45,339 nt of DNA, taken from Carboxylicivirga fragile. Lineage in GTDB: Bacteria; Bacteroidota; Bacteroidia; Bacteroidales; Marinilabiliaceae. The notes beneath the pieces were generated by a model. The model had not been told where the DNA came from, searched no databases, and was given only the letters and a program-made list of their open reading frames with translations. The stretch spans positions 1-45,339 of the forward strand of contig JAFMVD010000049.1 of assembly GCA_025499625.1 (NCBI GenBank). Reading direction: 5' to 3'. Numbering within the stretch: position 1 is the stretch's first letter; each line of letters opens with the position of its first letter. Made by a program: the position numbers and the translations under genes. This document shows positions 17,765 through 44,065 of this stretch, piece after piece.

Positions 17765-18616
17765 TTAGAAAACTTTGTGGTTAATGTCACGGTATTCGTT
17801 TGGTGTCATCCCATTGTGTTTCTTAAATACCTTGTAAAAGTGGCCTATGGCACTAAACCCGCAATTGTAACAAATTGTCTTGATAGGCACATTTGTCATT
17901 GTTAACCTTTGTGCGGCATAATTCATTTTTATCTTGGTAACTGTTTCGGTAAGGGTTTGGTTAAGGCACTGTTTAATAATCTTATTCACATGGTCAGTTG
18001 TTCGCTCTGTCAGTTCAACAAAACCAGGTACGCCTTTTCGGAATAGTTGAGGTGAATTGTATTGATCGAGTGCAATGGCCAGCCATCTTGGAACGTCGCA
18101 GGAGTTTTCTTCAAATGTTTCGGTTAGCATTCTGAAAATATGCAGAACCATGATGTCAAGATGAATGTAATCTCTCTTTTTAGTTAGAATGTAATCGGTA
18201 AAGGTTGAAATATCGTTTAAATGATCAGCATTAAGCTTAACCATGTATGGCATCTTCTCATTTGTCCAGAAGAAAGTTTCAGATTCAGGAAAGTAACGAT
18301 CTTTAAATAATTGAAGGCTTTCGAGGTAGAAGGCTATATTGGTAACCACAAGGCCGGTATTATTACCTGTTGAAACAAAGGTATGCGTATCCTGTGGTCG
18401 CATCAAACAGAGTGTTCCTTTCTCGATGGTGTGTTTTTCACCATTAATGATATGGATTCCGTTTCCTTCTTTAATCCAAAACATCTCTGCATAATCGTGG
18501 TCGTGATAATCCAGATTTTCATCTGCTGTAATGGTTCTCCTAACTATATGGAATACATCATTAGGTTGTATTAGAAAAGAAGGTAAGCTAATGCGGGTTT
18601 TCTTACTTGGTATCAT
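17765..18616 (-). CDS. Cupin-AraC transcriptional regulator
   Basis: This is a 283-residue one-component regulator. The N-terminal cupin-like sensor (residues ~25-110, with H-D-H-D-Y-A-E and I-E-K-G-T-L-C-L-M-R-P) is of the sugar-binding AraC type. The C-terminal 95 residues hold two helix-turn-helix motifs, ending C-Y-N-C-G-F-S-A-I-G-H-F-Y-K-V-F-K-K. The internal ATG at 18616 is chosen because the paralogue at 40578-41417 starts at the same aligned position; the longer frame would begin at 18655. It points away from the GH92/GH130 operon across a 371-base gap with direct repeats and a strong promoter. It is therefore the likely activator of that operon. Confidence 0.88.
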   Translation of the reverse strand: MIPSKKTRISLPSFLIQPNDVFHIVRRTITADENLDYHDHDYAEMFWIKEGNGIHIINGEKHTIEKGTLCLMRPQDTHTFVSTGNNTGLVVTNIAFYLESLQLFKDRYFPESETFFWTNEKMPYMVKLNADHLNDISTFTDYILTKKRDYIHLDIMVLHIFRMLTETFEENSCDVPRWLAIALDQYNSPQLFRKGVPGFVELTERTTDHVNKIIKQCLNQTLTETVTKIKMNYAAQRLTMTNVPIKTICYNCGFSAIGHFYKVFKKHNGMTPNEYRDINHKVF

Positions 18617-18703
18617 AATTTCGAGTGTGTGCACAGCAACTGCATCGTGTAGCACACGTGCTATGTTTTACAGTTGGCTGCAATGGTGTGTGCGACAAAA
18701 GTA
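18617..18703 (-). promoter_or_regulatory. Upstream region of the AraC gene with palindrome and -7 box
   Basis: TAGCACACGTGCTA (18650-18663) is a 6-2-6 palindrome. GTGTGTGC occurs on both sides of it (near 18625 and 18686). On the minus strand TACTTTTG (18703-18696) matches TAnnTTTG, but no TTTG was found at the right distance. These are candidate autoregulatory sites, unproven. Confidence 0.35.
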
Positions 18704-18928: not shown

Positions 18929-18987
18929 TTCAACGAAAAGTTATCCGCCATTAGTAGTTAAAAGTGATTCATAATTATTCATTTTAT

Positions 18988-21315
18988 ATGATGTATACTA
19001 GAGAAAAAATGATCGCAATAGTGAGGTTTATAGCAATATTTTCTGTGATAATAGGTTTTACCGCCTGTATTGAAGAAGAGAGTCAAGTAAAGAAGAATGT
19101 TGATTATACCGAATATGTGAACCCGCTGATGGGAACTGATTCTGATTTTTCACTATCTAATGGTAATACTTATCCTGCCATAGCCCGACCATGGGGTATG
19201 AATTTTTGGACGCCAATGACAGCTAATTTTGGTGATGGGTGGACTTATAAGTACCGCGATACCAAGATTAAAGGTTTCAAACAAACGCATCAACCTAGTC
19301 CCTGGATAAATGACTACGCTGCTTTCGCTTTAATGCCGATAACAGGTGAACTTAAGTTTAATGAGGAAGATAGAGCATCGTGGTTTTCGCACAAGGCAGA
19401 AGAAGTTAAACCACATTATTACAGTGTTTATCTAGCCGATTATGATATTACGGCGGAGATGACTCCAACAGAACGTGCGGTATCATTTCAGTTTACTTTT
19501 CCTGAGAATGAAGAATCTTATGTACTACTCGATGGATTTAAAGGGGGATCCATGGTGAAAATCCTTCCCGAAGAACGTAAGATAATTGGTTACTGTCGTA
19601 ATAATCACGGAGGTGTACCATATAACTTTCACAACTACTTTGTAGCGGAGTTTGATAAGGATTTTGAAATTGTTAATACATGGAAAGATTCTACTTTATT
19701 AGAAGGGCAAAAGTTTGCAGAAGCTGATCATGTTGGTGCTATAGTTGGTTTTAAAACCAAAAGAGGAGAGAAGGTTAATGTAAAAGTAGCTTCTTCATTT
19801 ATCAGCCCAGAGCAAGCTAAATTGAATCTTGATACTGAGATTGGAGACAAAACGTTTGAGGCGATTAAAGAAGAAGGGCAAGCTATCTGGAATGCTGAAT
19901 TGGGTAAAATAAAAGTGGAGGGTCAAAACATTGATCACATTCGCACTTTTTATTCAACCTTATATAGAGTACTACTATTTCCGCGTATGTTTCATGAAAT
20001 AAATGAGCAAGGTGAAATAGTACATTATAGCCCGTACAATGGAGAAGTATTGCCAGGATACATGTTTACCGATAATGGTTTCTGGGATACATTTCGTGCT
20101 GTCTTTCCATTCTTTACCCTAATGTACCCCGAGTTGAACAGTCAGATAATGGAAGGCTTGGTTAATACTTATAAGGAAAGTGCATGGTTGCCTGAGTGGG
20201 CTAGTCCTGGTCACCGAGGTTGTATGATTGGTTCGAACTCAGCATCTTTAATTGCCGATTCGTATTTAAAAGGTATACGTGGTTATGATATTGAAACTCT
20301 GTACGAAGCCATTCTGAAAAATTCGACCAGTGTGCATGAGGAGGTTAGTTCTGTTGGGCGCTATGGGCATGAGTATTATAATAAGTTGGGCTACATTCCT
20401 TACGATGTAGGCATTCATGAAAATACAGCGCGCACACTGGAATATGCATATGCCGATTACTGTGTATGGAAGTTAGCAGAAGAACTGGATAGACCACAAG
20501 AGGAAATTGATTTATTTAAGGCAAGAGCTCAGAACTATAAAAATGTGTTTGATCCTGAAAGTGGATGGATGCGTGGTCGTAATGAAAATGGTGAATTTCA
20601 AGCACCTTTTAATCCATTTAAGTGGGGTGATGCATTTACCGAAGGAAACAGCATACATTATACCTGGAGCGTATTTCAGGATATTGAAGGACTAATTGGA
20701 TTGATGGGAGGAGATGAGGCTTTCGTGAGTCAATTAGATACGGTATTTAATTTACCTCCAATCTTCGATAATTCGTATTACGGATTTACCATTCATGAGA
20801 TTCGTGAAATGCAGATTGTGAACATGGGTAATTACGCACATGGTAATCAACCTATACAGCACATGTTGTACTTGTATAATTATGCTGGTCAGCCATGGAA
20901 AACACAAGAACGAGTACGAGAGGTACTAACTAAACTCTATACACCAAATGCCGATGGCTACTGTGGTGATGAGGATAATGGACAAACATCGGCCTGGTAT
21001 GTATTCAGCTCAATGGGCTTTTACCCTGTTTGCCCGGGAACGGATGAGTACGTGATTGGTTCACCATTATTTGATAAAGTAACAGTTGAATTACCTAATG
21101 GGAAGAATTTACAAATACAAGCTAATAACAATTCAAAAGAGAATGTGTTTGTACAAAGCATGACTCGCAATGGGAAGGATGTGAATAAAAACTATTTCAA
21201 ACAGAGTGAATTGCTTGAAGGAGGAATCATTAATGTGGAAATGTCACCAACGCCAAATAAGAAGCGTGGTAATACAAAAGAAGCTGCTCCATATTCCATG
21301 TCAACCAAGAAATAA
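18988..21315 (+). CDS. GH92 alpha-mannosidase lipoprotein, alpha-1,2-type residues retained
   Basis: This is the first gene of the AraC-controlled operon, about 775 residues. The lipoprotein signal ends G-F-T-A-C. Starts at 18988, 18991 or 19009 all give a workable signal; a GTG at 18964 is less likely. Numbering from 19009, the acid is E545 in E-G-N-S-I-H-Y, followed by H596-E597 and D654-E-D656-N-G-Q. The distances (51 and 111 residues) equal those I recall for E533, H584/E585 and D644 of the characterised Bacteroides enzyme Bt3990, where H584/E585 line the +1 site of alpha-1,2-mannosidases. An alpha-1,2 specificity is therefore the best guess. The S-I-H variant after E-G-N is unusual. Confidence 0.9.
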   Translation: MMYTREKMIAIVRFIAIFSVIIGFTACIEEESQVKKNVDYTEYVNPLMGTDSDFSLSNGNTYPAIARPWGMNFWTPMTANFGDGWTYKYRDTKIKGFKQTHQPSPWINDYAAFALMPITGELKFNEEDRASWFSHKAEEVKPHYYSVYLADYDITAEMTPTERAVSFQFTFPENEESYVLLDGFKGGSMVKILPEERKIIGYCRNNHGGVPYNFHNYFVAEFDKDFEIVNTWKDSTLLEGQKFAEADHVGAIVGFKTKRGEKVNVKVASSFISPEQAKLNLDTEIGDKTFEAIKEEGQAIWNAELGKIKVEGQNIDHIRTFYSTLYRVLLFPRMFHEINEQGEIVHYSPYNGEVLPGYMFTDNGFWDTFRAVFPFFTLMYPELNSQIMEGLVNTYKESAWLPEWASPGHRGCMIGSNSASLIADSYLKGIRGYDIETLYEAILKNSTSVHEEVSSVGRYGHEYYNKLGYIPYDVGIHENTARTLEYAYADYCVWKLAEELDRPQEEIDLFKARAQNYKNVFDPESGWMRGRNENGEFQAPFNPFKWGDAFTEGNSIHYTWSVFQDIEGLIGLMGGDEAFVSQLDTVFNLPPIFDNSYYGFTIHEIREMQIVNMGNYAHGNQPIQHMLYLYNYAGQPWKTQERVREVLTKLYTPNADGYCGDEDNGQTSAWYVFSSMGFYPVCPGTDEYVIGSPLFDKVTVELPNGKNLQIQANNNSKENVFVQSMTRNGKDVNKNYFKQSELLEGGIINVEMSPTPNKKRGNTKEAAPYSMSTKK

Positions 21316-21321
21316 GAACTT

Positions 21322-23559
21322 ATGAATCGAATTATATCATTGGCTGTCGTACTTTTAGTTATTTGTCAAATCGATTTGGCACAAGAGTATACTAAGTATG
21401 TGAACCCGTTTATTGGCACTACAAATTTTGGTACTACTAATCCTGGAGCCATTGTTCCGCAAGGTATGGTTTCTGTAGTTCCTTTTAATGTAGCGGGTTC
21501 AAGCACTAATAAATGGGATAAGGATGCCCAGTGGTGGTCAACGCCCTATTCATGGGATAACCAATTCTTAACAGGTTTTTCCCATGTAAACCTTAGCGGT
21601 GTTGGTTGCCCCGATTTAGGAGTTATAATGGTGATGCCAACTACGGGAGAAATTAAGCCCAGATATAAAGACTTTGGTTCCATGATGAGCCAACAAGAAG
21701 CTGAACTAGGCTATTATTCTTGTATGCTTGATAAGTATCAGATCAAAGCAGAAGTAACGGCAACTCCTCGCACGGGATTAAGCCAATTTACCTTTCCTGA
21801 AGGTCAATCGAATATCCTGATTGATTTGGGCAATGGCTTAACAAATGAGCAAGGTGCAAGTATTAGGATAGTGAGCGAAAATGAGGTTGAGGGCTTCCGT
21901 ATGACTGGAGATTTCTGTTACCATGGTCAGTCGGAGCGACCTGTTTATTTTGTTGCTCGATTCAGTAAATCGGCCAAAGAATATGGTGTGTTTAAAAAAA
22001 TGCCGGAAATGCAGGCCGAAGCAAGTTGGTCGGCAAGTGCCAATGAGTTTAAGTTGTATCAATCGTTCCAGCACCCTGTTGCTGGCGATAGTATTGGAGC
22101 TTATTTCTCGTTTGATACTGAAGAGGATGAGCGCGTACAGGTACAGCTTGGTGTTTCGTATGTAAGTATTGATAACGCAAGACAGAATTTAGAATTTGAA
22201 TCCACTGATTTTAATTTTCAGGCAACAAGAGAGAATGCCCAGAAAGATTGGGAATCTACTCTTTCGAAGGTTAAAGTTGAAGGCGGAACAAAAGATCAAC
22301 TTACAATCTTTTACACGGCGCTGTATCACATGAATATCCATCCCAACATCATTAACGATGTGAATGGTCAATATCCATTAATGGAAAACTACGGCACAGG
22401 TTTAGTTGAAGGAAGAGATCGCTATACAGTCTTTTCGTTATGGGATACCTATCGTAATCTACATCCTTTGATGAGTTTGCTTTATCCTGAAAAGCAATTG
22501 GACATGGTACGTTCAATGGTTGATATGTACAAGGAGGGCGGATGGCTGCCAAAATGGGAACTCAATAGTAGCGAAACCTACACTATGAACGGTGATCCTT
22601 CATTTCCAGTAATTGTGGATACTTATCGAAGAGGATTAAGAGATTTTGATGTGGAAGCGGCTTATGAAGCGATGTTAAAATCAGCTACCACCAAGGAGGT
22701 CGACAATAAGATTCGAACTGTTAATGATTTTTATCTGGCTAATGCCTATGTGCCTTTTATGGCCGATTATGATAATTCAGTTTCCATTGCATTAGAGTTG
22801 TATTTGGCCGATTGGAACCTAGCTCAATTCGCTAAAGATTTAGGGCATGAGGGTGACTACAATCGCTTTATGAAGCAGTCAAAAGGTTACGTTAATTATT
22901 TCGATAAGAAGGAATTTAAAATGTTACGACCTAAAAATCCTGACGGTACTTTCTTAGCATCTTTTGATCCTTTACAAGGAGAAAATTTTGAGCCAGTGCA
23001 TGGTTTTCATGAAGGAACAGCTTGGCAATATGCCTTTGGTGTACCACACGATATTAAAGGAATAATCAAACTATATGGAGGTTCTAAAAAGTTTACAAAT
23101 AAACTTCAGCGTGTATTTGACGATGGTTTGTTTGATATGGCCAACGAGCCCGATATGCATTATCCTTTTCTCTTCAATAATATCAAAGGGGAAGAGTGGC
23201 GTTCACAAAAAGAAACGCGCCGCTTGATTGATACCTACTTTTTAAACACACCAGGTGGTATTCCAGGAAACGACGATTGTGGCACCATGAGTGCGTGGTT
23301 GGTTTATGCCATGATGGGAATTTACCCAGTTTGCCCTGGTGATATGGATTTTGCTATTACTACACCTGTTTTCGATAAGGTAAGTATTGAGCTGAATCAA
23401 AGGTATTATAAGGGAGAAAGTTTCGAGATTATTAAAGAAGGTAAGGGCAATATTATCAATCAAATAAAGGTTGATGGCCAAACAAGTAAATCATATTTTA
23501 TCAACAATAAAACGATTATTTCTGGTTCAAAGCTGGTGATTTCAACAAAAGAAAAGTAA
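21322..23559 (+). CDS. GH92 alpha-mannosidase, secreted (signal peptidase I)
   Basis: This 745-residue GH92 enzyme has a signal ending D-L-A-Q and no lipobox cysteine, so unlike its neighbours it is probably a soluble periplasmic enzyme. The N-terminal Y-V-N-P-F-I-G-T and N-P-G-A-I-V-P-Q-G motifs are standard. The catalytic acid is E564 in H-E-G-T-A-W-Q-Y, and the base region is G-N-D651-D652-C-G-T. The spacing between them is only 88 residues against 102-111 in the others, owing to a shortened middle segment, so it belongs to a different GH92 subgroup. It starts six bases after the previous GH92 and its stop codon abuts the MFS start. Confidence 0.9.
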   Translation: MNRIISLAVVLLVICQIDLAQEYTKYVNPFIGTTNFGTTNPGAIVPQGMVSVVPFNVAGSSTNKWDKDAQWWSTPYSWDNQFLTGFSHVNLSGVGCPDLGVIMVMPTTGEIKPRYKDFGSMMSQQEAELGYYSCMLDKYQIKAEVTATPRTGLSQFTFPEGQSNILIDLGNGLTNEQGASIRIVSENEVEGFRMTGDFCYHGQSERPVYFVARFSKSAKEYGVFKKMPEMQAEASWSASANEFKLYQSFQHPVAGDSIGAYFSFDTEEDERVQVQLGVSYVSIDNARQNLEFESTDFNFQATRENAQKDWESTLSKVKVEGGTKDQLTIFYTALYHMNIHPNIINDVNGQYPLMENYGTGLVEGRDRYTVFSLWDTYRNLHPLMSLLYPEKQLDMVRSMVDMYKEGGWLPKWELNSSETYTMNGDPSFPVIVDTYRRGLRDFDVEAAYEAMLKSATTKEVDNKIRTVNDFYLANAYVPFMADYDNSVSIALELYLADWNLAQFAKDLGHEGDYNRFMKQSKGYVNYFDKKEFKMLRPKNPDGTFLASFDPLQGENFEPVHGFHEGTAWQYAFGVPHDIKGIIKLYGGSKKFTNKLQRVFDDGLFDMANEPDMHYPFLFNNIKGEEWRSQKETRRLIDTYFLNTPGGIPGNDDCGTMSAWLVYAMMGIYPVCPGDMDFAITTPVFDKVSIELNQRYYKGESFEIIKEGKGNIINQIKVDGQTSKSYFINNKTIISGSKLVISTKEK

Positions 23560-24843
23560 ATGAACGAAGTGAATACATTGAAAAGAAATCCGGCTTTGTG
23601 GATACCTACGGCCTTTTTTGCCATGGGCTTACCTTTTGTTGCCATAGCTCAGGCATCAGCTTTAATGTATAAAAACATGGGAATAAGTGATGGGCAGATT
23701 GCCTTCTGGACATCACTTATTATGCTGCCCTGGACTTTAAAACCGCTATGGAGTCCTGTGTTGGAAATGTTTAAAACCAAGAAGCATTTTGTTGTTGCAA
23801 CTCAGATTGTAACAGGAATGACCTTTGCTCTTGTTGCTTTATCCTTACCCTTGGATGACTTTTTTAGGTATTCGATTGCCCTGTTGGCGGTTGTGGCAAT
23901 TAGTGGAGCTACGCACGATATTGCAATTGATGGTGTTTATTTGACTGTTTTATCACCAAAACTCCAGGCCAAATATATAGGATGGCAGGGAGCTGCCTAT
24001 AATATCGCGAAGATCGTTTCAGGTGGTGGTTTTGTATATCTGGCTGGAGAACTGGAGAAAACCATGGGAGTAACTTACGCCTGGATGGTGGTTATGGCAA
24101 CATATGGTGCAGTTATGTTTTTACTCGGTTTGTACCACATCAAAATGTTACCAAGTGGCGGTAAAGCTGAAGAAGTACAGTCGCTGAAAGAAGGGTTTCA
24201 AACGCTCAAAGATGTGATAAGAACTTTTTTTCAGAAGAAGTTTATTCTTTGGTATATCGTGTTTATTATTCTTTACCGTTTTGCCGAAGGCTTTGCCATT
24301 AAAATTGCACCATTGTTTTTTAAAGCAGCTGTTGCTGATGGTGGCTTAGGAATGAGTACGTCTGAGATAGGTCTGGTCTATGGTACTTTTGGTGCCGCTG
24401 CTTTTGTTGTAGGCTCCTTGCTGGGTGGCTATTATATATCGGCCAAAGGCTTGAATAATATTCTATTTAAATTGGCTCTTGTCTTTAATATACCTTTTGC
24501 TGTCTACTCTTTGTTGGCCATTTATCAGCCCGATAGTATTTACATTATTTCATTGGCAGTGGTGTTCGAGTACTTTGGTTATGGCTTTGGTTTCGTGGGA
24601 TTAATGCTGTTTATGATGCAGCAAATAGCGCCTGGAAAATACAAGATGGCACACTATGCCTTTGCTTCTGGTATTATGAACTTAGGTTTTATGATTCCAT
24701 CTATGTTAAGTGGTTATTTAAGTGATTTATTAGGCTATAAAATATTTTTCATATGGGTATTGGTAGCAACTATTCCTGCTCTATTGGCGGCTTATTTTGT
24801 GCCTTTTACCTATACCAATTCTGAAATTGACGCGAACAATTAA
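23560..24843 (+). CDS. MFS transporter, AmpG/PAT-like (oligosaccharide importer)
   Basis: This is an inner-membrane transporter of 427 residues with about 12 hydrophobic segments. Motifs W-S-P-V-L-E, H-D-I-A-I-D-G and W-Q-G-A-A-Y-N resemble the PAT/AmpG branch of the MFS, which moves acetyl-CoA or muropeptide-type sugars. The ATG follows the GH92 stop with no gap, and a GH130 phosphorylase comes nine bases later. From memory, B. thetaiotaomicron has the same trio (GH92, GH130, MFS) around BT1032-BT1034 for N-glycan core processing. The likely cargo is therefore Man-beta-1,4-GlcNAc or a similar disaccharide. This is inference from context. Confidence 0.82.
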   Translation: MNEVNTLKRNPALWIPTAFFAMGLPFVAIAQASALMYKNMGISDGQIAFWTSLIMLPWTLKPLWSPVLEMFKTKKHFVVATQIVTGMTFALVALSLPLDDFFRYSIALLAVVAISGATHDIAIDGVYLTVLSPKLQAKYIGWQGAAYNIAKIVSGGGFVYLAGELEKTMGVTYAWMVVMATYGAVMFLLGLYHIKMLPSGGKAEEVQSLKEGFQTLKDVIRTFFQKKFILWYIVFIILYRFAEGFAIKIAPLFFKAAVADGGLGMSTSEIGLVYGTFGAAAFVVGSLLGGYYISAKGLNNILFKLALVFNIPFAVYSLLAIYQPDSIYIISLAVVFEYFGYGFGFVGLMLFMMQQIAPGKYKMAHYAFASGIMNLGFMIPSMLSGYLSDLLGYKIFFIWVLVATIPALLAAYFVPFTYTNSEIDANN

Positions 24844-24852
24844 AAATATATT

Positions 24853-25827
24853 ATGAGTTCAAAACAAAATATACCTTGGGAAGATAGACCGGATGGATGC
24901 ACAGATGTTATGTGGCGTTATTCAAAAAATCCCATCATAGGCCGTTACGAGATTCCAACATCCAATAGCATTTTTAATAGTGCTGTGGTGCCGTTTAATG
25001 ATGGATTCGCAGGCGTATTCAGATGTGATAACAAAGCCGTTCAGATGAATATTCATGCTGGGTTTAGTAAAGACGGCATCAATTGGGACATTGTACATGA
25101 CCCCATTGTTATGAAAGCTGGGAATACTGAAATGATTCATTCTGATTACAAGTATGATCCGAGGGTTACTTTTATCGAAGATCGGTATTGGATTACTTGG
25201 TGTAATGGCTATTCAGGGCCAACCATTGGCATAGCCTATACTTTCGATTTTAAAGAATTTTTTCAGTGTGAGAATGCCTTTTTACCTTTCAACCGTAATG
25301 GGGTTCTTTTTCCTGAAAAGATTGATGGAAAGTATTGCATGTTGAGCCGTCCAAGTGATAATGGACATACAGCCTTTGGTGATATCTTCCTGAGTTATAG
25401 TCCTGATATGAAATTCTGGGGTGAGCATCGCTCTGTATTAAAGGTTACGCCATTTGAAGAAAGTGCCTGGCAATGTTTAAAAGTTGGTGCGGGTGGTGTG
25501 CCTATCAAGACAGAGCATGGCTGGTTATTGTTTTATCATGGTGTGATTCAAACTTGCAATGGTTACCGCTATTCAATGGGATCGGCCTTACTTGATTTAG
25601 AGCAACCAGATAAAGTGTTGTACCGTACTCAGCCTTATTTAATAGCTCCTAACGAGACTTATGAGACGAATGGTGATGTACCAAATGTGATCTTCCCTTG
25701 TGCATCTCTACACGATGATGAAGGCAAGGTGGTTGTGTATTATGGTGCTGCCGATACAGTGGTAGGCGTTGTTTTTGGTTATATTGATGAAATTATAGAA
25801 TTCACGAAAAGTAATTCTCTAACATAA
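24853..25827 (+). CDS. GH130 beta-1,4-mannoside phosphorylase
   Basis: This cytoplasmic phosphorylase of 324 residues has no signal peptide. Family GH130 enzymes split beta-1,4-mannosides with phosphate to give alpha-mannose-1-phosphate and the free acceptor sugar. The five-bladed propeller motifs are present: K-Y-D102-P-R-V, with D102 as the expected catalytic acid, and G-A-G-G-V-P-I-K followed by G-W-L-L-F-Y-H-G. Length and motifs fit the GH130_2 type (Man-beta-1,4-GlcNAc or related) better than the longer GH130_1 mannosylglucose enzymes. Together with the adjacent permease and GH92 genes this points to degradation of the N-glycan core disaccharide; beta-mannan is a weaker alternative. Confidence 0.88.
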
Positions 25828-25832
25828 GTGTA

Positions 25833-28052
25833 ATGGAAAATAAATCTCGGATAGTGGCGTTTCTTTTAATATCGATTACCCTTGGTATGATGTTTTCCTG
25901 TCAAGTGGAATCTAAATCTGATATTGAGAATGAGGTTCTAACAAAGTATGTTGATTCTTTTATTGGAACAGATGGACCAGGTAATACATACCCGGGAGCT
26001 GTTGTGCCTTTCGGAATGGTTCAATTAAGTCCCGACAATGGGTTGCCAGGGTGGGACAGAATAGCTGGTTATTTTTGGCCAGATTCGACCATCGCTGGTT
26101 TTAGTCATAAACACTTAACAGGAACGGGAGCGGGAGATTTATACGATATTCTGATAATGCCTTATAACAGCAGGTTTACTGAGAATCTAATTGAGAGTGA
26201 CACGGAATATAGACCGTACTCAATGTTCAGTCATTCTCAAGAGCTTGCCAAACCTGGTTATTACTCGGTTGATTTATTAAGTTCAGGCATTAAAGCAGAA
26301 CTAACCGTAACGCCGCGTGTGGGTATGCACCGTTATACCTTTCCGGAAGATGAGGATTCAAAAATATTGGTTGATCTGGGTTATTCACTTAACTGGGACG
26401 ATCCAACAGAAACCTATCTGGAACTGGTAGATGAAACAACCATCGTTGGATACCGATATTCAACCGGATGGGCACCCGATCAGCGGGAGCATTTTGTCAT
26501 TAATACATCATTGCCAATTAAGAACATTGATTTTTATGAGAATACCCTTAAGGTAGAAAAGAAATCGGCTAAGGCTAAAAAAACAAAACTTGAAATCACT
26601 TTTAATACCAAAGCTGATGAGCAAGTATTACTAAAAGTAGCCTTATCATCTCATTCCATTGAAGCTGCTCAAAAAAACATGGAAGCAGAGTGTCCAGCTT
26701 GGGACTTTGATGCCATTGTTAAGCAAGCCGATGAAGCATGGAATAAACAATTGAGTTCCATAAGCATTGAAGCCAGTGAGTACCAAAAGAAACTATTTTA
26801 TACCAACTTGTACCATTGTTTCTTAACACCATCCTTACATGCCGATGTGGATGGTTGGTACAAAGGAGCTGATGGTGAGATGCACCAAGCGGTAGGATAC
26901 GATAAATACGATACCTTCTCACTTTGGGATACTTACCGAACAGCTCATCCCTTGTATACTATTTTAGTGCCCGATAAGGTAAGTGACATGGTGGCTTCTT
27001 TTATGAGTCATTATAAGGAAACGGGTTTACTACCTGTTTGGACAATGGCGGGCAACGAAACTGATATGATGATAGGTTACCACGCTGTGCCTGTTATTGT
27101 TGATGCTTATTTTAAAGGTATATCAATGGATGCAGAAATGGCCTATGATGCTTGCAAGCAAACCGCTATGAGTGATGCCTGGAGTTTGCCCGATTATAAA
27201 AAGTATGGTTACATTCCATCCGATGACGATAGCCACGGGCATTGGAGTGTATCTAAAACATTGGAATATGCCTACGATGATTGGTGTATCGCTGTTTTTG
27301 CGAAGGCACTGGGGCATGAAGAAGATTACCTCTTTTTTAAGGATAGGGCCGATAATTGGAAGAATCTACTCGATCCTGTTACCACATTCTTCAGACCGAA
27401 GGATAAAGCAGGTAAGTTCATAAAAGACTTTGTACCAAGAGACTATTCTGAGTTATTTTGCGAGAGTAACGCATGGCAATACATGTGGCATGTGCAGCAC
27501 GATATTGAAGGTTTAATCGATGAAGTGAATAAAGATGTTTTTGTGGCCAAGCTCGATTCAATGTTCACATATAAAGGAGAGACTGATGATGTGTTACCAA
27601 TATTTTCAACAGGTATGATTGGGCAATATGCCCACGGTAACGAACCTAGTCATCATGTGGCATACCTGTACAATCAGTTGGGACAGCCTCACAAGACGCA
27701 GGACTTGGTTCGTCAGATTCTGAATGAGCAATACACCGATAAGCCAGATGGCTATTGTGGTAACGAAGATTGTGGCCAGATGTCGGCCTGGTACATCATG
27801 TCCTCGCTTGGTATGTATCCGATTAATCCGGCCGATGGGATTTACGCACTTACTTCACCCTTGCATAAAGAAGCAACTATTCATTTGAGCAATGGCTTGG
27901 AGTTTAAGGTGAGCACTGATTTGAATGGTAAGGATAATGTTTACATTCAATCGGTAACATTCAATGATAAACCTTTGGATGAACTAACAATCACTCATCA
28001 GCAAGTTATGGAAGGTGGTAATTTGCATTTTGTACTAGGTGATACGTATTAG
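25833..28052 (+). CDS. GH92 alpha-mannosidase lipoprotein
   Basis: This is the last gene of the operon, 739 residues, with a lipoprotein signal ending M-M-F-S-C23. The standard GH92 signatures are present: Y-V-D-S-F-I-G-T, N-T-Y-P-G-A-V-V-P-F-G-M-V-Q-L-S-P-D, H-G-N-E-P-S-H-H and G-N-E-D646-C-G-Q-M-S-A-W-Y. The catalytic acid motif is slightly altered, C-E544-S-N-A-W-Q-Y with serine in place of the usual glycine; the glutamate is kept. It is the intact gene closest in sequence to the deleted GH92 remnant at 17104-17758. Linkage preference is not readable. A hairpin and T run 30 bases on end the operon. Confidence 0.92.
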   Translation: MENKSRIVAFLLISITLGMMFSCQVESKSDIENEVLTKYVDSFIGTDGPGNTYPGAVVPFGMVQLSPDNGLPGWDRIAGYFWPDSTIAGFSHKHLTGTGAGDLYDILIMPYNSRFTENLIESDTEYRPYSMFSHSQELAKPGYYSVDLLSSGIKAELTVTPRVGMHRYTFPEDEDSKILVDLGYSLNWDDPTETYLELVDETTIVGYRYSTGWAPDQREHFVINTSLPIKNIDFYENTLKVEKKSAKAKKTKLEITFNTKADEQVLLKVALSSHSIEAAQKNMEAECPAWDFDAIVKQADEAWNKQLSSISIEASEYQKKLFYTNLYHCFLTPSLHADVDGWYKGADGEMHQAVGYDKYDTFSLWDTYRTAHPLYTILVPDKVSDMVASFMSHYKETGLLPVWTMAGNETDMMIGYHAVPVIVDAYFKGISMDAEMAYDACKQTAMSDAWSLPDYKKYGYIPSDDDSHGHWSVSKTLEYAYDDWCIAVFAKALGHEEDYLFFKDRADNWKNLLDPVTTFFRPKDKAGKFIKDFVPRDYSELFCESNAWQYMWHVQHDIEGLIDEVNKDVFVAKLDSMFTYKGETDDVLPIFSTGMIGQYAHGNEPSHHVAYLYNQLGQPHKTQDLVRQILNEQYTDKPDGYCGNEDCGQMSAWYIMSSLGMYPINPADGIYALTSPLHKEATIHLSNGLEFKVSTDLNGKDNVYIQSVTFNDKPLDELTITHQQVMEGGNLHFVLGDTY

Positions 28053-35595: not shown

Positions 35596-36642
35596 CTACT
35601 GTTTTAGATAAAATCGTTGAATGTTAAGCTCAGGATTTAATGGGGCGTGGTTTAGTAAATAGTCGCAAAATTGCTTTCCTAGCAGTGGTACCAGCATATA
35701 ACCCTTTGCTCCCAAACCATTAAAGATATACAATTTTTTTTCGCTTTTATGTTGACCCATTATTGGCCTTCGGTCTTTAACGGTGGGGCGCACACCAGCT
35801 TCCTGAGTTATAATTTTGGGTTCAATATCGGTAATGTACTTTAAGTTTCTTAAGAGTTCCTCTCTGGCCTCATCTGTAGTGTTGGTGCTAATGTTGTGCC
35901 ATTCGTAAGTCGCACCAATTCTAAATTGTTGCTTGCCTAAAGGCAGGATAAAGCATTTGCGATTCAATGATTCGTGTTCAGGTATTCCTTCCATCTCAAC
36001 TTTTAAAGTTTGTCCTTTTGTGGGATCCACAGGTAGTTCCTTAAAAAACGGATTATTGCGTACTTCAAATCCCTCGCAGAAAATAATCTTAGAATAAGTT
36101 ATGCCTTTATAATTATCGGCTTCAATTTTTGTATAGTCAAAATCTTGGCGAAGAAAATTGGCATTACTTTTTAACCAAGCTTCCATCTTTTTAAAAAATG
36201 TGGCGACATCAACACAGTAAGCCGATTTTACTCTTGCCGATCCGTAAGGATTTTTGGCTAGATTATATGTTTCATCATCTTTGTTGATGGAATGCATGTA
36301 GGGTTTAAATTCATTTTGTTCTTGCTTCTTAAGCCAGTACCCACGTTCCTGCTCCGACGAAAATAAGCGTCTGATATTTAACGGGATCAGTAATTTGCTT
36401 GATGTTTCTTCTTCTAACTGTGTGTAAAACGGTATTAGGTATTCCATAACATCGTCTACCATCCAACTCTTTGTCATTCGCCTAAAAACCAACGGAGTTA
36501 TTAAACCTGCAGCAATTTTCGAACTCCAATTCTTACCCTTATCTATTATGGTAACGGGCACATGGCGTTTGCTTAGTTGGTAAGCCAAACAAATACCTGC
36601 TAAACCGGCACCTACAATTATAATCCGCTCTTTTTCCTTCAT
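35596..36642 (-). CDS. FAD-dependent oxidoreductase (DAO/glycine oxidase fold)
   Basis: This is a 348-residue flavoprotein. The N-terminal dinucleotide-binding motif G-A-G-L-A-G (residues ~11-16) is followed by the acidic end of strand 2 (I-I-D-K-G). The C-terminal R-I-G-A-T-Y-E-W and G-V-R-P-T-V-K-D-R-R-P segments belong to the D-amino-acid oxidase superfamily. The substrate is unknown. It lies on the same strand as the glycyl radical enzyme locus, 67 bases beyond a truncated permease, so it may or may not belong to that unit. Many Bacteroidota carry similar unlinked genes. Confidence 0.82.
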   Translation of the reverse strand: MKEKERIIIVGAGLAGICLAYQLSKRHVPVTIIDKGKNWSSKIAAGLITPLVFRRMTKSWMVDDVMEYLIPFYTQLEEETSSKLLIPLNIRRLFSSEQERGYWLKKQEQNEFKPYMHSINKDDETYNLAKNPYGSARVKSAYCVDVATFFKKMEAWLKSNANFLRQDFDYTKIEADNYKGITYSKIIFCEGFEVRNNPFFKELPVDPTKGQTLKVEMEGIPEHESLNRKCFILPLGKQQFRIGATYEWHNISTNTTDEAREELLRNLKYITDIEPKIITQEAGVRPTVKDRRPIMGQHKSEKKLYIFNGLGAKGYMLVPLLGKQFCDYLLNHAPLNPELNIQRFYLKQ

Positions 36643-36823: not shown

Positions 36824-37249
36824 TTAGTTGTTTAAGAGTTGATTCACCTGTTGATGAAGATCCTTTTTTTCATCCTCATTGAGATAATGAAACTCATAAT
36901 CGCCATCCGGCAAGGGAAGGTGAGTATTGGCATCTTCAATAATTAATACTTTAGAACCCTTATACATGGCAATGTTGTGCCATACGTCTTTACGAATATT
37001 GTAAGTGATGCCTGGTTTCATTAACTGAAGATCATATTTAATATCGTCTTGGTCTAGTTTAGCTGCAATCAAAACGGCTTTCCCTTCAACCAAAAAAAAG
37101 GCTTCATCTGTTTTGTGATGAATGTCCAATCGTTCAATGGCTTCTAACTCTTCCTCGGGCGCATGATTTAACTGTGCAACTTGCCAGGTAGGCGTTATTA
37201 AATATGGATTATAGCCTTCTTTAGTATGTTCGTATTTGTCGATTATCAT
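36824..37249 (-). CDS. Small cupin protein
   Basis: This 141-residue protein has one cupin barrel. The first motif is H-H-K-T-D-E-A-F-F-L-V-E-G-K, a metal-binding-like arrangement; the second is around D-V-W-H-N-I-A. Such cupins in sugar loci often act as isomerases, epimerases or metal-dependent lyases, or as ligand sensors. The gene starts 12 bases after the glycyl radical enzyme stop, so they are co-transcribed. It probably acts on the substrate or product of that enzyme. I do not recognise a closer family. Confidence 0.8.
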   Translation of the reverse strand: MIIDKYEHTKEGYNPYLITPTWQVAQLNHAPEEELEAIERLDIHHKTDEAFFLVEGKAVLIAAKLDQDDIKYDLQLMKPGITYNIRKDVWHNIAMYKGSKVLIIEDANTHLPLPDGDYEFHYLNEDEKKDLHQQVNQLLNN

Positions 37250-37261
37250 AGTTAGTTCAGT

Positions 37262-39424
37262 TTAGCTTTCGAGTATGCGGTCAACAACTAATTGACGGAA
37301 TTCAGGAGTTAGCATTGAAAAATAGGCCGTGAATCCTGTTATTCGGACAACCAATTCCGGGTATTTAGTTGGGTCTTTATGGGCATCCAATACTTTTTCT
37401 TTATCCATGATGTTCACATTGATGAGTGTACCACCCATTTTAAAATGTGCTTTAATAATGGATCCGATTAAATCAGCATGTTCCTGCTTGGCCATACTAG
37501 GATCCACTTCCCACTGCATAGGTGCGGTATTGCCATAACCTGGTTGCACACGTGCTATGGCAGATGCCATTGCCAAAGAAGCAGCATCGGCTGTAAATCC
37601 TGGATTTGGATTGGCACCGTGCGAAATAGGTTCGTGCTTTTTCCGTCCATTAGGTGTTGCACCCAATGCTTTACCAAAACCAACCGTATTGGCCCATGAA
37701 AAAAGTCCGGGAATAAAAAGGTGCTGTTTCTTTGCATCGCATTCCAGTCTAACAAAATCGGAGAAAATTAATTGTGTTTTATGAGCCCATTTGTCAGCTA
37801 AAGAGTTTCCCTGGCCGTAGCGATCACTATTTTTCATTAACAAACGAATGCGCTCACCTTCCGCCTCTTCAAAATTAGATTGTATGTGGTAATTAATTTC
37901 ATCCCATGATATCTTATTTTCTTTTTCAATGCGTTGCTCCAAGGCAGCTAATGAATCTGCCACAACAGCTAATCCAGCGCCATCAATGGCTAGATTGTAA
38001 TACTTGGCACCGCCATCGGCAACATCTAGTCCTTTTTCAATTGGGCCATGACTCAAAAGGTTAAGTATGAGCTCAGGTTCATTGTATTTTTGGTATTTAA
38101 GGTGGTGGCGTATTCCATTGGCAGCAGTTTCAACCGCAAGTTTAAGGTGTGATTCAAACCGATTCCACAAATCACTTGTGCTATTTGCGAGTGATTTATT
38201 ATCCATCATCTCCTTGTAAGCTACTTCAAACACCTTAGCCATGTTTACTTTTACCAAATCATTCATGGTGTATTCCATGCCTGGTAACGACATCCAGTTA
38301 CAACCGACGGCAATACGTTGACGTGCTGTTGAGGCATCAAAACCATTTTTCATAAAGCCATCAACCAAGGATTTATCACCTGAAAAGCGAGGCCAGGCAT
38401 TTTTATTCTTAATCAAATAATGCAAGGAGCGATTAAACAATTGTTCCTCCATGCCATCGTGAACACGCACCGTAATATTAAGTGCTGTATTTATTTTATC
38501 ACCTGCTTCGAGGATTAAATAGGATATGTCAGATGTTTGATCATTACCATCTTTATCGGGGCCACCCAATTGCCAGTAAATAGGATCGTTTATCAGAAAG
38601 CAGGCCAAATAATAAACGGTTTTGTCTTGATCTATTCGTCCCTCGGCCAAATCTTTTTCATAAAATGGCTGAAGCAAGGTGTCAATTTGTCCACCAGCTC
38701 CGTCACGATTGTAGGTACGTGAGGCTAAATGATACCAAATAATCCATTGACATGCTTCGCGTAATGTTTGTGGGGGGGCGGATAGAATGTTCTCATTGAC
38801 CTGAAGCATCTCATTGAGATTCTCAAGCAAAAGGGGATCTTGTTCAAGAGTAATCAGTTGGTGTATGGCCTTAATGTGATTTCTTATCCAAACCTGAATG
38901 CTCTTTATGGCACGTTCATGTGCCTTGTAGAATTTTTGTTGTTCGGGTGATGTATTTATTTTCCGGTAAGTTTCTATTTTATCAAGTAGACCTTGCCAGC
39001 CAAGCTTAACGCCCATTTGGTAATCGGGAGCAAAGTGTGCATCATCGCCAATGCCTGAAATAATATCATATTTATCAATGTTCTCTTGCAGATGATCATA
39101 TGGATAATCGGGGTTCCATTTGTTTGAACGCATTCGCGACATGAAATAACTCCAGCGGCCTGCAAAGGCATCATTGGGATCGATATAAACCTCATGATTC
39201 TCCATTAGATTACAGAAGTTATTTGTCCACCCATCTAAACCGTAAAACGATCCATCGGCATGATTATGGATACTCTTCCATCCGTTTTCAGGAGGAACAA
39301 CACGACCATAATCATCTTCGTCTAGTAAGCCTTCTATTTTAATTTTTGTTTTGGTCTGAGCTAGTTTTTTCCTTTTCAGAACATCAATCCTTTTTTGAAA
39401 TCTAAAGTTATCAAGTGCTTTCAT
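37262..39424 (-). CDS. Glycyl radical enzyme, substrate unknown
   Basis: This is an oxygen-sensitive radical enzyme of 720 residues in the pyruvate formate-lyase superfamily. The C-terminal glycyl radical loop is R-I-T-G697-F-T-A-Y-F, the canonical R-V-x-G-Y with phenylalanine after the glycine, 24 residues from the end. The thiyl cysteine is C375 in A-V-G-C-N-W-M-S. Dehydratase- and lyase-type members (CutC, glycerol/propanediol dehydratase, HypD) have G-C-V-E here, with the glutamate as base; this protein has tryptophan at that place, and it also lacks the C-C pair of pyruvate formate-lyase. The class and reaction are therefore not assignable. Its activase lies upstream and a cupin downstream. 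Confidence 0.88.
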   Translation of the reverse strand: MKALDNFRFQKRIDVLKRKKLAQTKTKIKIEGLLDEDDYGRVVPPENGWKSIHNHADGSFYGLDGWTNNFCNLMENHEVYIDPNDAFAGRWSYFMSRMRSNKWNPDYPYDHLQENIDKYDIISGIGDDAHFAPDYQMGVKLGWQGLLDKIETYRKINTSPEQQKFYKAHERAIKSIQVWIRNHIKAIHQLITLEQDPLLLENLNEMLQVNENILSAPPQTLREACQWIIWYHLASRTYNRDGAGGQIDTLLQPFYEKDLAEGRIDQDKTVYYLACFLINDPIYWQLGGPDKDGNDQTSDISYLILEAGDKINTALNITVRVHDGMEEQLFNRSLHYLIKNKNAWPRFSGDKSLVDGFMKNGFDASTARQRIAVGCNWMSLPGMEYTMNDLVKVNMAKVFEVAYKEMMDNKSLANSTSDLWNRFESHLKLAVETAANGIRHHLKYQKYNEPELILNLLSHGPIEKGLDVADGGAKYYNLAIDGAGLAVVADSLAALEQRIEKENKISWDEINYHIQSNFEEAEGERIRLLMKNSDRYGQGNSLADKWAHKTQLIFSDFVRLECDAKKQHLFIPGLFSWANTVGFGKALGATPNGRKKHEPISHGANPNPGFTADAASLAMASAIARVQPGYGNTAPMQWEVDPSMAKQEHADLIGSIIKAHFKMGGTLINVNIMDKEKVLDAHKDPTKYPELVVRITGFTAYFSMLTPEFRQLVVDRILES

Positions 39425-39455
39425 GTGTCTATATTTTATTTTTCAATGGCCACAT

Positions 39456-39517
39456 GGTACGATAGCTATCGTACCTCGCCACAATAGTCATTCCCCTGTG
39501 TGAGAAAACTTTTCTCA
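39456..39517. promoter_or_regulatory. Two perfect palindromes between activase and glycyl radical enzyme genes
   Basis: GGTACGATAGCTATCGTACC (39456-39475) is a 20-base perfect palindrome. TGAGAAAA-C-TTTTCTCA (39501-39517) is an eight-base inverted repeat around one base. Both lie in the 118-base gap between the activating enzyme stop and the glycyl radical enzyme start. They could be operator sites, an attenuator or processing signal setting enzyme-to-activase ratio, or inserted repeats. Confidence 0.5.
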
Positions 39518-39542
39518 TGGCTCGTTTCATATGATTGTTTTT

Positions 39543-40442
39543 TTAGTCGATTGCTTTTTCAATGTTATATTTCTTAAGAATGCTATCGTATTTTATTAGG
39601 TCATTATTTGTGAGACCTTTTTCATTCTGAAATGGATTATCAATTCCCAAGTTTTTGTATTTGTTTGCTCCTAAAGGATGAAATGGTAATAGTTCAAATT
39701 TTTCAATGTTCTTAAGTTCAGACACAAATGCTGCAATTTGCTCAATTTCTAGTATTGAGTCATTGACATTAGGAATAACAGGTGTTCGTAGCCAATAAGG
39801 CTTTCCGGTTTTGTCTAGCAGCTTAATATTCTCAAGTATTAAATCGTTGTTTACGCTGGTCCACTTTATATGATCAGATTTAGTAATCATTTTAAGATCG
39901 GCCATTACCAGGTCAACATGTTGAAGAACTTCCTTATAATGCGACCATTGACAATGCAGGTTAGTTTCAATAGCCGTATGAATATATTGTTGCTTACAGA
40001 GCTTAAATACTTCCTCTGTAAATTTTGCCTGAAGCATAGGTTCGCCACCGGAAATGGTGACACCTCCTCCTGATTCTTTGAAATAGGGCAGGTCCTGCTT
40101 AATTTCATCAACCAGCAACTGCGGACTTATTGTTCTTCCAATTTTGTGAAGTGCGTTGGGAAAACAATGATTAATACATTCAAAGCAGGCTGTGCACTGT
40201 TTTTTATTGAATTGTACTATTCCTGCATCGTTTGATAGTGCCTTACTATCACAAACGGGTAGGCAGGCTTTGCAATTGATACACTTATCTGCAATCCATT
40301 CAAGTTCTTCTTTCTGAGAAAAGGTTTCAGGATTGTGGCACCATCTACATCGCATATTGCATCCCTTGAGAAAGATAGTAGTTCGGATGCCTGGTCCGTC
40401 ATGAATTGACATGCGTTGTATGTTGGTAATTATTCCCTGCAT
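39543..40442 (-). CDS. Glycyl radical enzyme activating enzyme (radical SAM)
   Basis: This radical-SAM activase of 299 residues installs the glycyl radical on its partner. The SAM cluster motif is C28-N-M-R-C32-R-W-C35. It is followed by an inserted ferredoxin domain with two C-x2-C-x2-C-x3-C sets (C54/57/60/64 and C83/86/89/93), as in activases of glycyl radical enzymes other than pyruvate formate-lyase. The G-G-G-V-T-I-S-G-G-E-P SAM-binding motif is intact. It lies directly upstream of the glycyl radical enzyme on the same strand and has a promoter of its own just before the start. Confidence 0.93.
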   Translation of the reverse strand: MQGIITNIQRMSIHDGPGIRTTIFLKGCNMRCRWCHNPETFSQKEELEWIADKCINCKACLPVCDSKALSNDAGIVQFNKKQCTACFECINHCFPNALHKIGRTISPQLLVDEIKQDLPYFKESGGGVTISGGEPMLQAKFTEEVFKLCKQQYIHTAIETNLHCQWSHYKEVLQHVDLVMADLKMITKSDHIKWTSVNNDLILENIKLLDKTGKPYWLRTPVIPNVNDSILEIEQIAAFVSELKNIEKFELLPFHPLGANKYKNLGIDNPFQNEKGLTNNDLIKYDSILKKYNIEKAID

Positions 40443-40577: not shown

Positions 40578-41417
40578 TTAAAAAACTTTGTGATTCTTTT
40601 TTCGATATTCGGCGGGTGTAAGTCCAGTGTACTTTTTATAGGTACGATAAAAATAGGAAATGGAATCGAAGCCGCAACTGTAGCAAATTGATTTAATGGA
40701 TGAGTTAGTCATGATTAACTGCTGACTGGCATGTTGAAGACGTGCTTTTATTATGGTTTCCGTGAGTGTCTGTTTAAGGTGTTTTTTTAAAACACGATTT
40801 ACGTGATCAACGGAACGTTGTGTGAGGTTCACAAAAGCGGGTGTTCCTTCTTTAAGTAACTCAGGCGTCACAAAATTCTCCAATGCATAAGCGAGCCAAT
40901 GGGGTAGATGTTCTTGATTGCTTTCAATTTTGCTAATTAATTTAAAAATGTGAATCATGATTGAATCCAGATTCAAATAATTGCGTGATTGACTTAGAAG
41001 TCGATCAGTAATAGCCGAAAGCTCATTGAGTTGATCGGTGTCGAGAAGCACTGTAAAAGGCAATTGATCAGTACTCCAAAAGTAGGATTTACTATTTGGA
41101 AAATAGCGATTTCTGAAGCAGCTTAGACTTTCTTTGTAAAATGCAATGTTGGTAATTACCAGATTATCCTTTGATTTTGAAAGTTTAAAAGTGTGATTGT
41201 CTTCTGGGCGAACCAAGCATAAAGTACCTTTTTCAATGGGGATTTCATTTCCATTAATAACATGAATGCCACGACCTGATTTTATCCAAAATACTTCGGC
41301 AAAGCCATGCTTATGCATGCGTAAATCATTCTGCGAACTTATCGTAGTACGCGCCACATGAAAAGCTTCTTTTTCATTATCGAGAAAGGCATTAAGTTTA
41401 AAATGTGTATCCGCCAT
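40578..41417 (-). CDS. Cupin-AraC transcriptional regulator (paralogue)
   Basis: This is a 279-residue AraC-type regulator: an N-terminal cupin-like sensor (I-E-K-G-T-L-C-L-V-R-P-E-D near residues 60-72) and two C-terminal helix-turn-helix motifs (C-Y-S-C-G-F-D-S-I-S-Y-F-Y-R-T-Y-K-K). It aligns end to end with the mannan-cluster AraC at 17765, including the final N-H-K-V-F, and looks roughly half identical by eye. It is upstream of the activase on the same strand and probably controls that operon. The sensor similarity suggests a sugar-like inducer related to the other regulator's ligand. Confidence 0.88.
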   Translation of the reverse strand: MADTHFKLNAFLDNEKEAFHVARTTISSQNDLRMHKHGFAEVFWIKSGRGIHVINGNEIPIEKGTLCLVRPEDNHTFKLSKSKDNLVITNIAFYKESLSCFRNRYFPNSKSYFWSTDQLPFTVLLDTDQLNELSAITDRLLSQSRNYLNLDSIMIHIFKLISKIESNQEHLPHWLAYALENFVTPELLKEGTPAFVNLTQRSVDHVNRVLKKHLKQTLTETIIKARLQHASQQLIMTNSSIKSICYSCGFDSISYFYRTYKKYTGLTPAEYRKKNHKVF

Positions 41418-41870
41418 TTTTTATTGTTTTCAAAACAAAGGAATGGCAAGTTAAGATTTATTGCATAATTATTAATATTAGTTTAGAATAGATTCTTGTT
41501 AAATATAATGTTTGTTGATTAGTCAATAAGATTTTGATGCTTTTGGTGTATATTTATGAGGGTTTTAAGGTATTAATGAATAACAGGTAGGTAATTTAGA
41601 TTTAAAATACGTTTGGGAGTGGATCAGATTCAAAACAAACTTATTTCTGTAATTAAAAATAAGGCGTTGACTTTGCGCATTTTGTCGATATTTCATCATT
41701 TAAATATGAGCAAAGCAAAGGCTATTCAACTGCAGTTTTATTGGGCATTGTTTTGTCTAAAGAATATCTAAAGAGGGTTGCTGCAAGTTCCGATTATGTT
41801 GAGCAAATGAAATTCAAAAAATTGAATTTGCGACAAATAATGTGTATTTTCGTTGCAAAACATGCATCGA
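41418..41870. other. Intergenic region before the Fic gene, no gene called
   Basis: The gap separates the divergent AraC and Fic genes and is AT-rich. An open stretch from about 41675 continues without start codon into the Fic region in another frame and is not supported as a gene. TTGCGAC (41828-41834) and GTTGCAA (41852-41858) form a near-inverted repeat just before the Fic start and may be a control site. Confidence 0.35.
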
Positions 41871-43530: not shown

Positions 43531-43739
43531 TAGAGTTAATAAAAACCATTAAAGTTCGCAGAGAAATGTTACAGGTCAACCAAGAAATGCTAGCAGAACT
43601 TTCTGGAGTAAGTCTTAGAACCTTGAAACAGTTTGAAAGTGGGAAGGGTAATCCGACCTTACAAACGATTAGTAAATTAGCTGATGCACTAGGTCTAGAA
43701 CTCACATTGCAAGTAAAACAATTAAGACCTGGTAAATGA
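43518..43739 (+). CDS. hipB: HipB-like antitoxin, XRE-family DNA-binding protein
   Basis: This 73-residue protein is a single Cro/C1-type helix-turn-helix domain (Q-E-M-L-A-E-L-S-G-V-S-L-R-T-L-K-Q-F-E-S-G-K-G-N-P-T). In HipB-type systems it represses the operon and, with its partner, restrains the kinase. Its stop overlaps the ATG of the next gene (ATGA at 43736-43739), showing translational coupling. Repeats in the promoter are candidate operators. Confidence 0.9.
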   Translation: MLHFLELIKTIKVRREMLQVNQEMLAELSGVSLRTLKQFESGKGNPTLQTISKLADALGLELTLQVKQLRPGK

Positions 43740-44065
43740 GACAAGCTAAGGTTCTTTATAAGAATGAGGAGGCAGGTTTGATTACCCAATTAGATAATGG
43801 AACATTTGTGTTTCGATACCATGATACATGGTTTAATGCCTCAGACAAACCATCTATTAGTCTAACGCTGCCAAAAAATCAGCAAGAATACCAATCCGAT
43901 TATTTGTTTCCGTTTTTCTATAATATGTTGCCGGAAGGAACCAATAGACAAGTAGTTTGCCACGCCATGCGTATTGATAAAGAAGATCATTTTGGCTTAT
44001 TGCTAACTATTGCTAACTATGACACAATTGGAGCTGTTAGAATTATTAAAATTGCTGATGCATGA
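43736..44065 (+). CDS. hipS: HipS-like protein (separate HipA N-terminal subdomain 1)
   Basis: This is a 109-residue protein equivalent to the first subdomain of HipA (A-x-V-L-Y-K-N, then F-R-Y, S-L-T-L-P, and F-F-Y-N-M-L-P-E-G). In ordinary HipA this is fused to the kinase; here it is an independent gene overlapping hipB and hipT by four bases at each end (ATGA). That matches the three-gene HipBST organisation described in enteropathogenic E. coli, in which HipS rather than HipB neutralises the HipT kinase. The frame is clean on both sides, so it is not a frameshifted hipA. Confidence 0.85.
   Translation: MRQAKVLYKNEEAGLITQLDNGTFVFRYHDTWFNASDKPSISLTLPKNQQEYQSDYLFPFFYNMLPEGTNRQVVCHAMRIDKEDHFGLLLTIANYDTIGAVRIIKIADA

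Follow-up and report, generated by a model that had tools for sequence, protein, structure and literature searches.

A glycyl radical enzyme family with a Gly-Cys-Asn-Trp loop in scattered Bacteroidota and a genomic context that points to a mannose-configured substrate

A 45,339-nucleotide stretch of the Carboxylicivirga fragile genome (GenBank assembly GCA_025499625.1, contig JAFMVD010000049.1), referred to here in its full length as the window, encodes a glycyl radical enzyme (GRE) whose cysteine loop reads Gly-Cys-Asn-Trp (GCNW). This GRE, with its loop, its radical glycine, and its own activase, is real and conserved, and it represents an apparently undescribed family of oxygen-sensitive radical enzymes in scattered Bacteroidota; no paper on the family was met in our literature searches, which were confined to open PMC papers. 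The genomic context points to a mannose-configured hexose as the substrate, and a sugar is the likely substrate class. The mannose link is what is new in the present analysis. We favor, tentatively and at just under an even chance, a reading in which the activase, the GRE, and a small cupin under an AraC regulator serve the anaerobic breakdown of a free manno-configured hexose, D-mannose or a close derivative. The genes of the operon, with positions counted in the window, are the following.

36824..37249, minus strand: small cupin, 141 amino acids; likely metal ligands H44, E49, and H91, with D42 also invariant
37262..39424, minus strand: GRE, 720 amino acids; PF02901 and PF01228; GCNW loop at residues 374-377; radical glycine G697
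39543..40442, minus strand: radical S-adenosylmethionine activase, 299 amino acids; TIGR02494; CNMRCRWC motif and ferredoxin-like insert
40578..41417, minus strand: AraC/RhaS-like regulator; Pfam and NCBIfam matches, and alignment to a paralog

Along the minus strand, the gaps between AraC, activase, GRE, and cupin are 135, 118, and 12 bp. Both Pfam domains of the GRE score above the cutoff (PF02901, 4.4e-100; PF01228, 2.7e-12), and the activase, whose cysteine motif is C-x3-C-x2-C, reaches 332.2 bits against an NCBIfam cutoff of 174.35 for TIGR02494.

The cysteine loop of the window GRE has the sequence RIAVGCNWMSLPG. C375 occupies the alignment column of the GC cysteine of glycerol dehydratase, PflD, CutC, and HypD, whose V/I-E is replaced here by N376-W377. 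Chance occurrence of GCNW is ruled out by its retention in all 27 family members read (26 of 26 aligned rows and the copy in genome G439, L075), and in the same 27 members the glutamate of the Cys-X-Glu (CXE) motif is absent, with C-N-W in its place. The adjacent C-C pair of pyruvate formate-lyase (PFL) is not present in the family either, the loop having C-N instead. Other cysteines were considered as the catalytic residue; C225 and C275 (26/26) and C71 (25/26) are conserved, but none of them falls on the GC loop in the alignment. These results bear out the initial annotation, which had named C375 as the thiyl cysteine and had noted the missing glutamate and the lack of a C-C pair. It had also called the radical glycine and activase canonical; the glycine motif is slightly less canonical than this, with phenylalanine for the usual tyrosine (RITGF, containing G697) in all 25 rows that reach this position and also in L075.

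The CXE glutamate is common to the eliminase GREs described. Its loss here deprives the family of the standard eliminase base; by itself, this is no proof of the different chemistry that the initial annotation had suggested. The family fails the CXE eliminase definition, and eliminase-like action with a displaced base could occur. N239, R240, D241, W284, Q285, N376, W377, E384, D389, N455, N477, D481, and N605 are invariant in the 26 family rows. Either D241 or E384 could replace the lost glutamate, and a sugar ring would be well accommodated by the tryptophan beside the cysteine and the many invariant polar residues. When the enzyme is aligned with glycerol dehydratase, H130 pairs with a histidine, D389 with an aspartate, and R240-D241 with H-S; we take the glycerol dehydratase residues, in number and role, to be C433, E435, H164, D447, H281, and S282.

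With its PF01228 and PF02901 domains, C375, G697, and a dedicated activase, the GCNW family is predicted from sequence to be a member of the GRE superfamily. A scan of a species-genome collection returned 24 loci, of which 23 (L004-L026) are close relatives, 64-83% identical to the window GRE, and the remaining one (L027) is a distant GRE at 28% identity; the nonfamily GREs compared are about 21-30% identical. By record title the hosts are Bacteroidota, plus one metagenome-assembled genome labeled Chlorobiota (L007), and they include Flammeovirga and Labilibaculum as well as Bacteroidales of the rumen and gut. The distribution is patchy. The gene was found in 1 of 395 genomes sampled from the class and 4 of 71 from the window's family, the C. 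fragile genome being in both counts; these frequencies are lower bounds, as the first search step scores few candidates. The family of a rumen member has the GRE in at least 2 of 199 genomes, the two found being already known members. Two copies are on plasmids, in Flammeovirga kamogawensis and Persicobacter psychrovividus, where the public annotation is "pyruvate formate lyase family protein." The top nonfamily match among the plasmid matches listed (202 bits) is a GRE with its activase on a transposon-rich Acinetobacter plasmid (L104, 6482-9857). None of 23 pattern matches in viral contigs is a relative.

To place the family among GREs, we built a maximum-likelihood tree of 33 rows, comprising 16 of the 26 family rows and 17 references that covered PFL, PflD, YbiW, CutC, and HypD; the tree has no rows for glycerol dehydratase, HPAD, IAD, IslA, benzylsuccinate synthase, or class III ribonucleotide reductase, and L002, L027, L046, L048, and L056 are outside it. 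The GCNW family forms a single 100/100 clade, whose stem measures 4.57 changes per column, apart from all five reference groups, and groups with neither PflD nor YbiW. It joins PFL with 95/85 support; we draw no kinship from this because the tool flags the join as long branches meeting (stems of 4.57 and 5.11). The window GRE matches 12 NCBIfam models (HpsG, HpfG, HypD, CutC, HPAD, IAD, and others) and is below the cutoff in all 12. The separate clade and these scores set it outside the characterized families tested, in line with the initial annotation, which had seen here a candidate for an undescribed catabolic system.

In loop sequence, the 17 tree references have C-x-E in 14 cases, C-C in two PFLs, and C-V-V in one Peptoclostridium GRE, and distant GREs have GC[IV]E in all 23 rows shown, two of which are the same gene. 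Eight more distant GREs comprise six with C-G-E (L046, L047, L048, L056, L058, and L059) and two, L027 and L002, in which no GC loop was matched and the glycyl motif resembles that of PFL; L002 is a separate GRE of the C. fragile genome (764 amino acids, motif RVSGYAVNF). A Parabacteroides GRE with a C-T-E loop (L107, 3527-6725) lies beside genes for a ROK protein, N-acetylmannosamine-6-phosphate epimerase, and a Gfo/Idh/MocA protein. Among solved structures, a profile of the family scores highest with PflD (223.7 bits), followed by archaeal PFL2 (216.4 bits) and glycerol dehydratase (212.3 bits); TutD and MasD are among the matches, though only weakly.

Neighbors were counted by tblastn with fixed references at 24 loci, namely, the window and L004-L026, of which L006, L011, and L023 end at contig ends. 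The activase adjoins the GRE in 22 of them; in L008 it is on the opposite strand, beyond an AraC gene, and in L006 and L011 the locus is cut by the contig end. A cupin is next to the GRE in 19 loci and an AraC gene is present in 14, in agreement with the conserved cupin and AraC neighbors anticipated by the initial annotation. A RhaT-like permease occurs in nine loci, and major facilitator superfamily (MFS) or sugar-porter genes are near the GRE in L010, L012, L019, L021, and L026. In L013 (10552-15489) and L020 (10544-15499), RhaT-like permease and glycoside hydrolase family 92 (GH92) and GH28 domains lie in one uninterrupted reading frame. Accessory neighbors vary (GH28, GH36, polysaccharide lyase family PL8, sulfatase, and esterase). 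Methyltransferase-like genes of the MtaA/CmuA type, which belong to the uroporphyrinogen decarboxylase (URO-D) group, are found beside the GRE in L019 (10587-11612) and L022 (8916-9941) and also at a cupin locus, L100 (10166-12900). The initial annotation had proposed a sugar or sugar-acid substrate; the sugar is likely, whereas direct action of the GRE on a sugar acid is unsupported because none of its conserved neighbors is an enzyme of sugar-acid metabolism.

A first pointer to mannose is the proximity of alpha-mannosidases. In 13 of the 24 loci, an alpha-mannosidase gene, GH47 in seven and GH92 in six, lies no more than 5 kb from the GRE. Eight of the 24 genomes carry a single GH47 gene, which in seven of them adjoins the GRE; a ninth match, partial at 4.5e-4 in the C. 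fragile genome, was left uncounted. A rough product of the chances of this GH47-GRE proximity over four lineages is 4e-11, a value that assumes uniform placement and independence and omits G439. GH47 is also beside the GRE in both plasmid loci, with a different gene order in Persicobacter, and it is full-length in 3 of 71 genomes of the window's family. Where GH47 occurs without an adjacent GRE, the neighboring AraC is 61% (L072) or 65% (L074) identical to that of the window; at the third such locus, L073, no AraC was matched next to GH47. The window itself holds a mannoside cluster with a regulator related to that of the operon.

17765..18655, minus strand: paralogous AraC regulator, divergent from the mannoside cluster; context, outside the operon
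18964..28052, plus strand: GH92-GH92-MFS-GH130-GH92 mannoside cluster, 9.2 kb from the GRE; context, outside the operon

The two AraC proteins are 49% identical over 277 amino acids, which upholds the earlier description of the operon AraC as a paralog of a mannoside regulator. Two further sets of genes flank the operon. A DAO-type oxidase gene (35596-36642), 181 bp downstream, was rejected as an operon member, being unmatched in the other 23 loci. Upstream, Pfam matches indicate a DUF4172/Fic protein and then a HipA N-terminal and HipA C-terminal gene pair, within 41853-42998 and 43736-45048.

The cupin provides a second link to mannose. It is present in 19 of the 24 GRE genomes, five of which have a second copy away from the GRE, and four of these five genomes are large (5.2-6.6 Mb). 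In a 198-genome sample of the phylum, the cupin was found in only two genomes, twice in that of C. fragile and once in G392, for which the class genome search showed no GCNW-family GRE. All six known cupin copies away from a GRE, three of them from the window's own genus, are within 7 kb of a GH38 alpha-mannosidase: 1.5-2.2 kb in L070, L071, L098, L099, and L103 and 6.3 kb in L100. Copy numbers of GH38 are 2 in G000, 1 in G392, 2 in G801, 4 in G812, 11 in G813, and 0 in G819, so that in G813 the link could be due to chance.

The gene order at the second C. fragile copy (L070; C72, 28500-48400) is GH38, sugar porter, cupin, RraA-like, short-chain dehydrogenase/reductase (SDR), beta-propeller lactonase, SBP-like, enoyl-CoA hydratase-like, CoA-transferase III, UxuA-like, 2-keto-3-deoxygluconate (KDG)-kinase-like, and 2-keto-3-deoxy-6-phosphogluconate (KDPG) aldolase. 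The SDR scores 215.3 bits with the glucose 1-dehydrogenase model NF005559 (cutoff, 215) and the KDPG aldolase scores 353.7 bits (cutoff, 275). Porter, RraA-like, SDR, and UxuA-like genes are common to L070, L071, L098, and L099, four of the six copies; L103 is a 3.4-kb contig with part of GH38, too short for a cluster reading. The SBP-like, enoyl-CoA hydratase-like, and type III CoA-transferase genes, found in three of these four clusters, are unexplained within a sugar route. The layout would fit a path from aldose through lactone and aldonate to KDG and, with GH38 and UxuA, the aldose would be D-mannose. A rare cupin and supply by mannosidases are common to the GRE module and the oxidative cluster, and in our reading the two deal with one manno-configured hexose, the former under anoxic and the latter under oxic conditions.

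Under the favored reading, GH47 or GH92 alpha-mannosidases would free the hexose, and a RhaT-like, MFS, or sugar-porter permease would import it. By homology, the activase would place a radical on G697, which would in turn generate the thiyl radical on C375. The cupin may open the ring or interconvert anomers to supply the reactive form. The thiyl radical would then abstract a pyranose hydrogen, probably that at C2, and a neighboring C-O bond would break without the CXE glutamate; D241, E384, or H130/D389 may provide acid-base catalysis, and the sugar may be stacked against W377. The product, perhaps a ketose, an anhydroketose, or a deoxy-sugar, would enter general metabolism; the lack of any conserved downstream enzyme next to the GRE favors a product usable by ordinary metabolism. 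The module would thus be the anoxic counterpart of the oxidative cluster (sugar porter, cupin, SDR, lactonase, and UxuA-like dehydratase), using a copy of the same cupin. A narrower version specifies free, unphosphorylated D-mannose, C2 hydrogen abstraction, and C1-O cleavage to D-fructose or 1,5-anhydrofructose, with the cupin supplying the ring form and the oxidative mannose-to-KDG cluster as the oxic counterpart. If D-fructose were the product, the enzyme would be a radical aldose-ketose isomerase. We know of no characterized GRE with a free monosaccharide substrate, and we consider this version doubtful.

Several observations weigh against a mannose-specific module. The cupin is absent near the GRE in 5 of the 24 loci, one of them contig-cut. 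No GH47 or GH92 gene is within 5 kb in 11 loci, including the window, and in G439 the GH47 gene is far from the GRE. GH92 proximity alone is weak because GH92 occurs in 24 of the 26 GRE genomes searched, usually in 4-21 copies (the 26 entries contain two pairs from the same genome, and L015 was outside this survey). In the oxidative clusters, the UxuA-like protein of L070 is under its NCBIfam cutoff (146.3 versus 191), and L100 has no oxidative genes near its cupin and GH38. The lead of PflD in the profile search is small, and a search with a single sequence in place of the profile puts archaeal PFL2 first and PflD fourth. Finally, phosphomannose isomerase is present in 23 of the 24 genomes. 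The idea that mannose lacks another route therefore failed; plain mannose has one, and the sugar may instead be a variant that is unable to go through mannose-6-phosphate.

A first alternative, which we hold to be unlikely, is that the GRE is an ordinary eliminase, a dehydratase in which D241 or E384 replaces the CXE glutamate and which acts either on a sugar or on some other compound. The invariance of both residues in 26 of 26 rows and the alignment of H130 and D389 with what we take to be H164 and D447 of glycerol dehydratase are consistent with this, as are the best profile matches, which are eliminases. Rather unlikely, in our view, is a substrate barred from mannose-6-phosphate, such as O-methyl-mannose or D-rhamnose, with the GRE and the oxidative cluster bypassing 6-phosphorylation. 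The presence of phosphomannose isomerase in 23 of the 24 genomes would be explained, the RhaT-like permease and RhaS-like regulator would fit, and the MtaA/CmuA-like URO-D proteins by the GRE and the cupin hint at methylated mannose. However, MtaA-like genes occur in only 2 of the 24 GRE loci, and the oxidative clusters of L070 and L099 carry KDG-kinase-like and KDPG-aldolase-like genes, for which the C6 hydroxyl must be free.

It is improbable that the substrate, rather than being the sugar, is an aglycone or another compound encountered together with mannosides; the varied accessory neighbors would suit such a role, but the sugar permeases, the RhaS-like regulator, and a cupin that recurs in a sugar-oxidation cluster argue against it. 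A PFL variant acting on a 2-keto acid, as the tree join and the public annotation might suggest, is hardly credible given the flagged long branches, the lack of a C-C pair, the low TIGR01255 score, and the separate PFL-like GRE in the same genome.

The GCNW family departs from the CXE rule, and its genomic partners give a short list of candidate substrates, making a new radical carbohydrate reaction testable. If true, the favored reading would explain the use of mannose units in the absence of oxygen by some Bacteroidota of marine and gut habitats, and it would assign a function to a cupin family whose only other known appearance is in an uncharacterized structure.

That structure is CA_C3497 of Clostridium acetobutylicum (PDB 3d0j), which matches the operon cupin over its full length (8e-28) but does not keep the second histidine, H91; in Pfam and NCBIfam, the operon cupin has only weak matches to Cupin_2, HAO, and WbuC. 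Of the known GREs, PFL shares superfamily and activase type with the GCNW family and differs in its C-C pair, and the GCNW GRE scores 83.2 bits against a TIGR01255 cutoff of 994.2. The B12-independent glycerol dehydratase (PDB 1r8w and 1r9d) is alignable over residues 129-713, in an identity class of about 25%, but has a C-V-E loop and an H-S pair that is replaced here by R240-D241. Escherichia coli PflD (PDB 8yjo) shares the GRE fold family, the C-G radical pair, the positions of H130 and D389, and the top profile score among solved structures. PflD has been reported to cleave 1,5-anhydromannitol-6-phosphate, and YbiW 1,5-anhydroglucitol-6-phosphate (PMC12441222). PflD has a C-V-E loop and a 6-phosphate substrate made by a phosphotransferase system (PTS), whereas in the GCNW family the loop is C-N-W and the neighbors identified include no PTS; what the reported PflD substrate shares with the one proposed here is that it is a manno-configured pyranose (PMC12441222).

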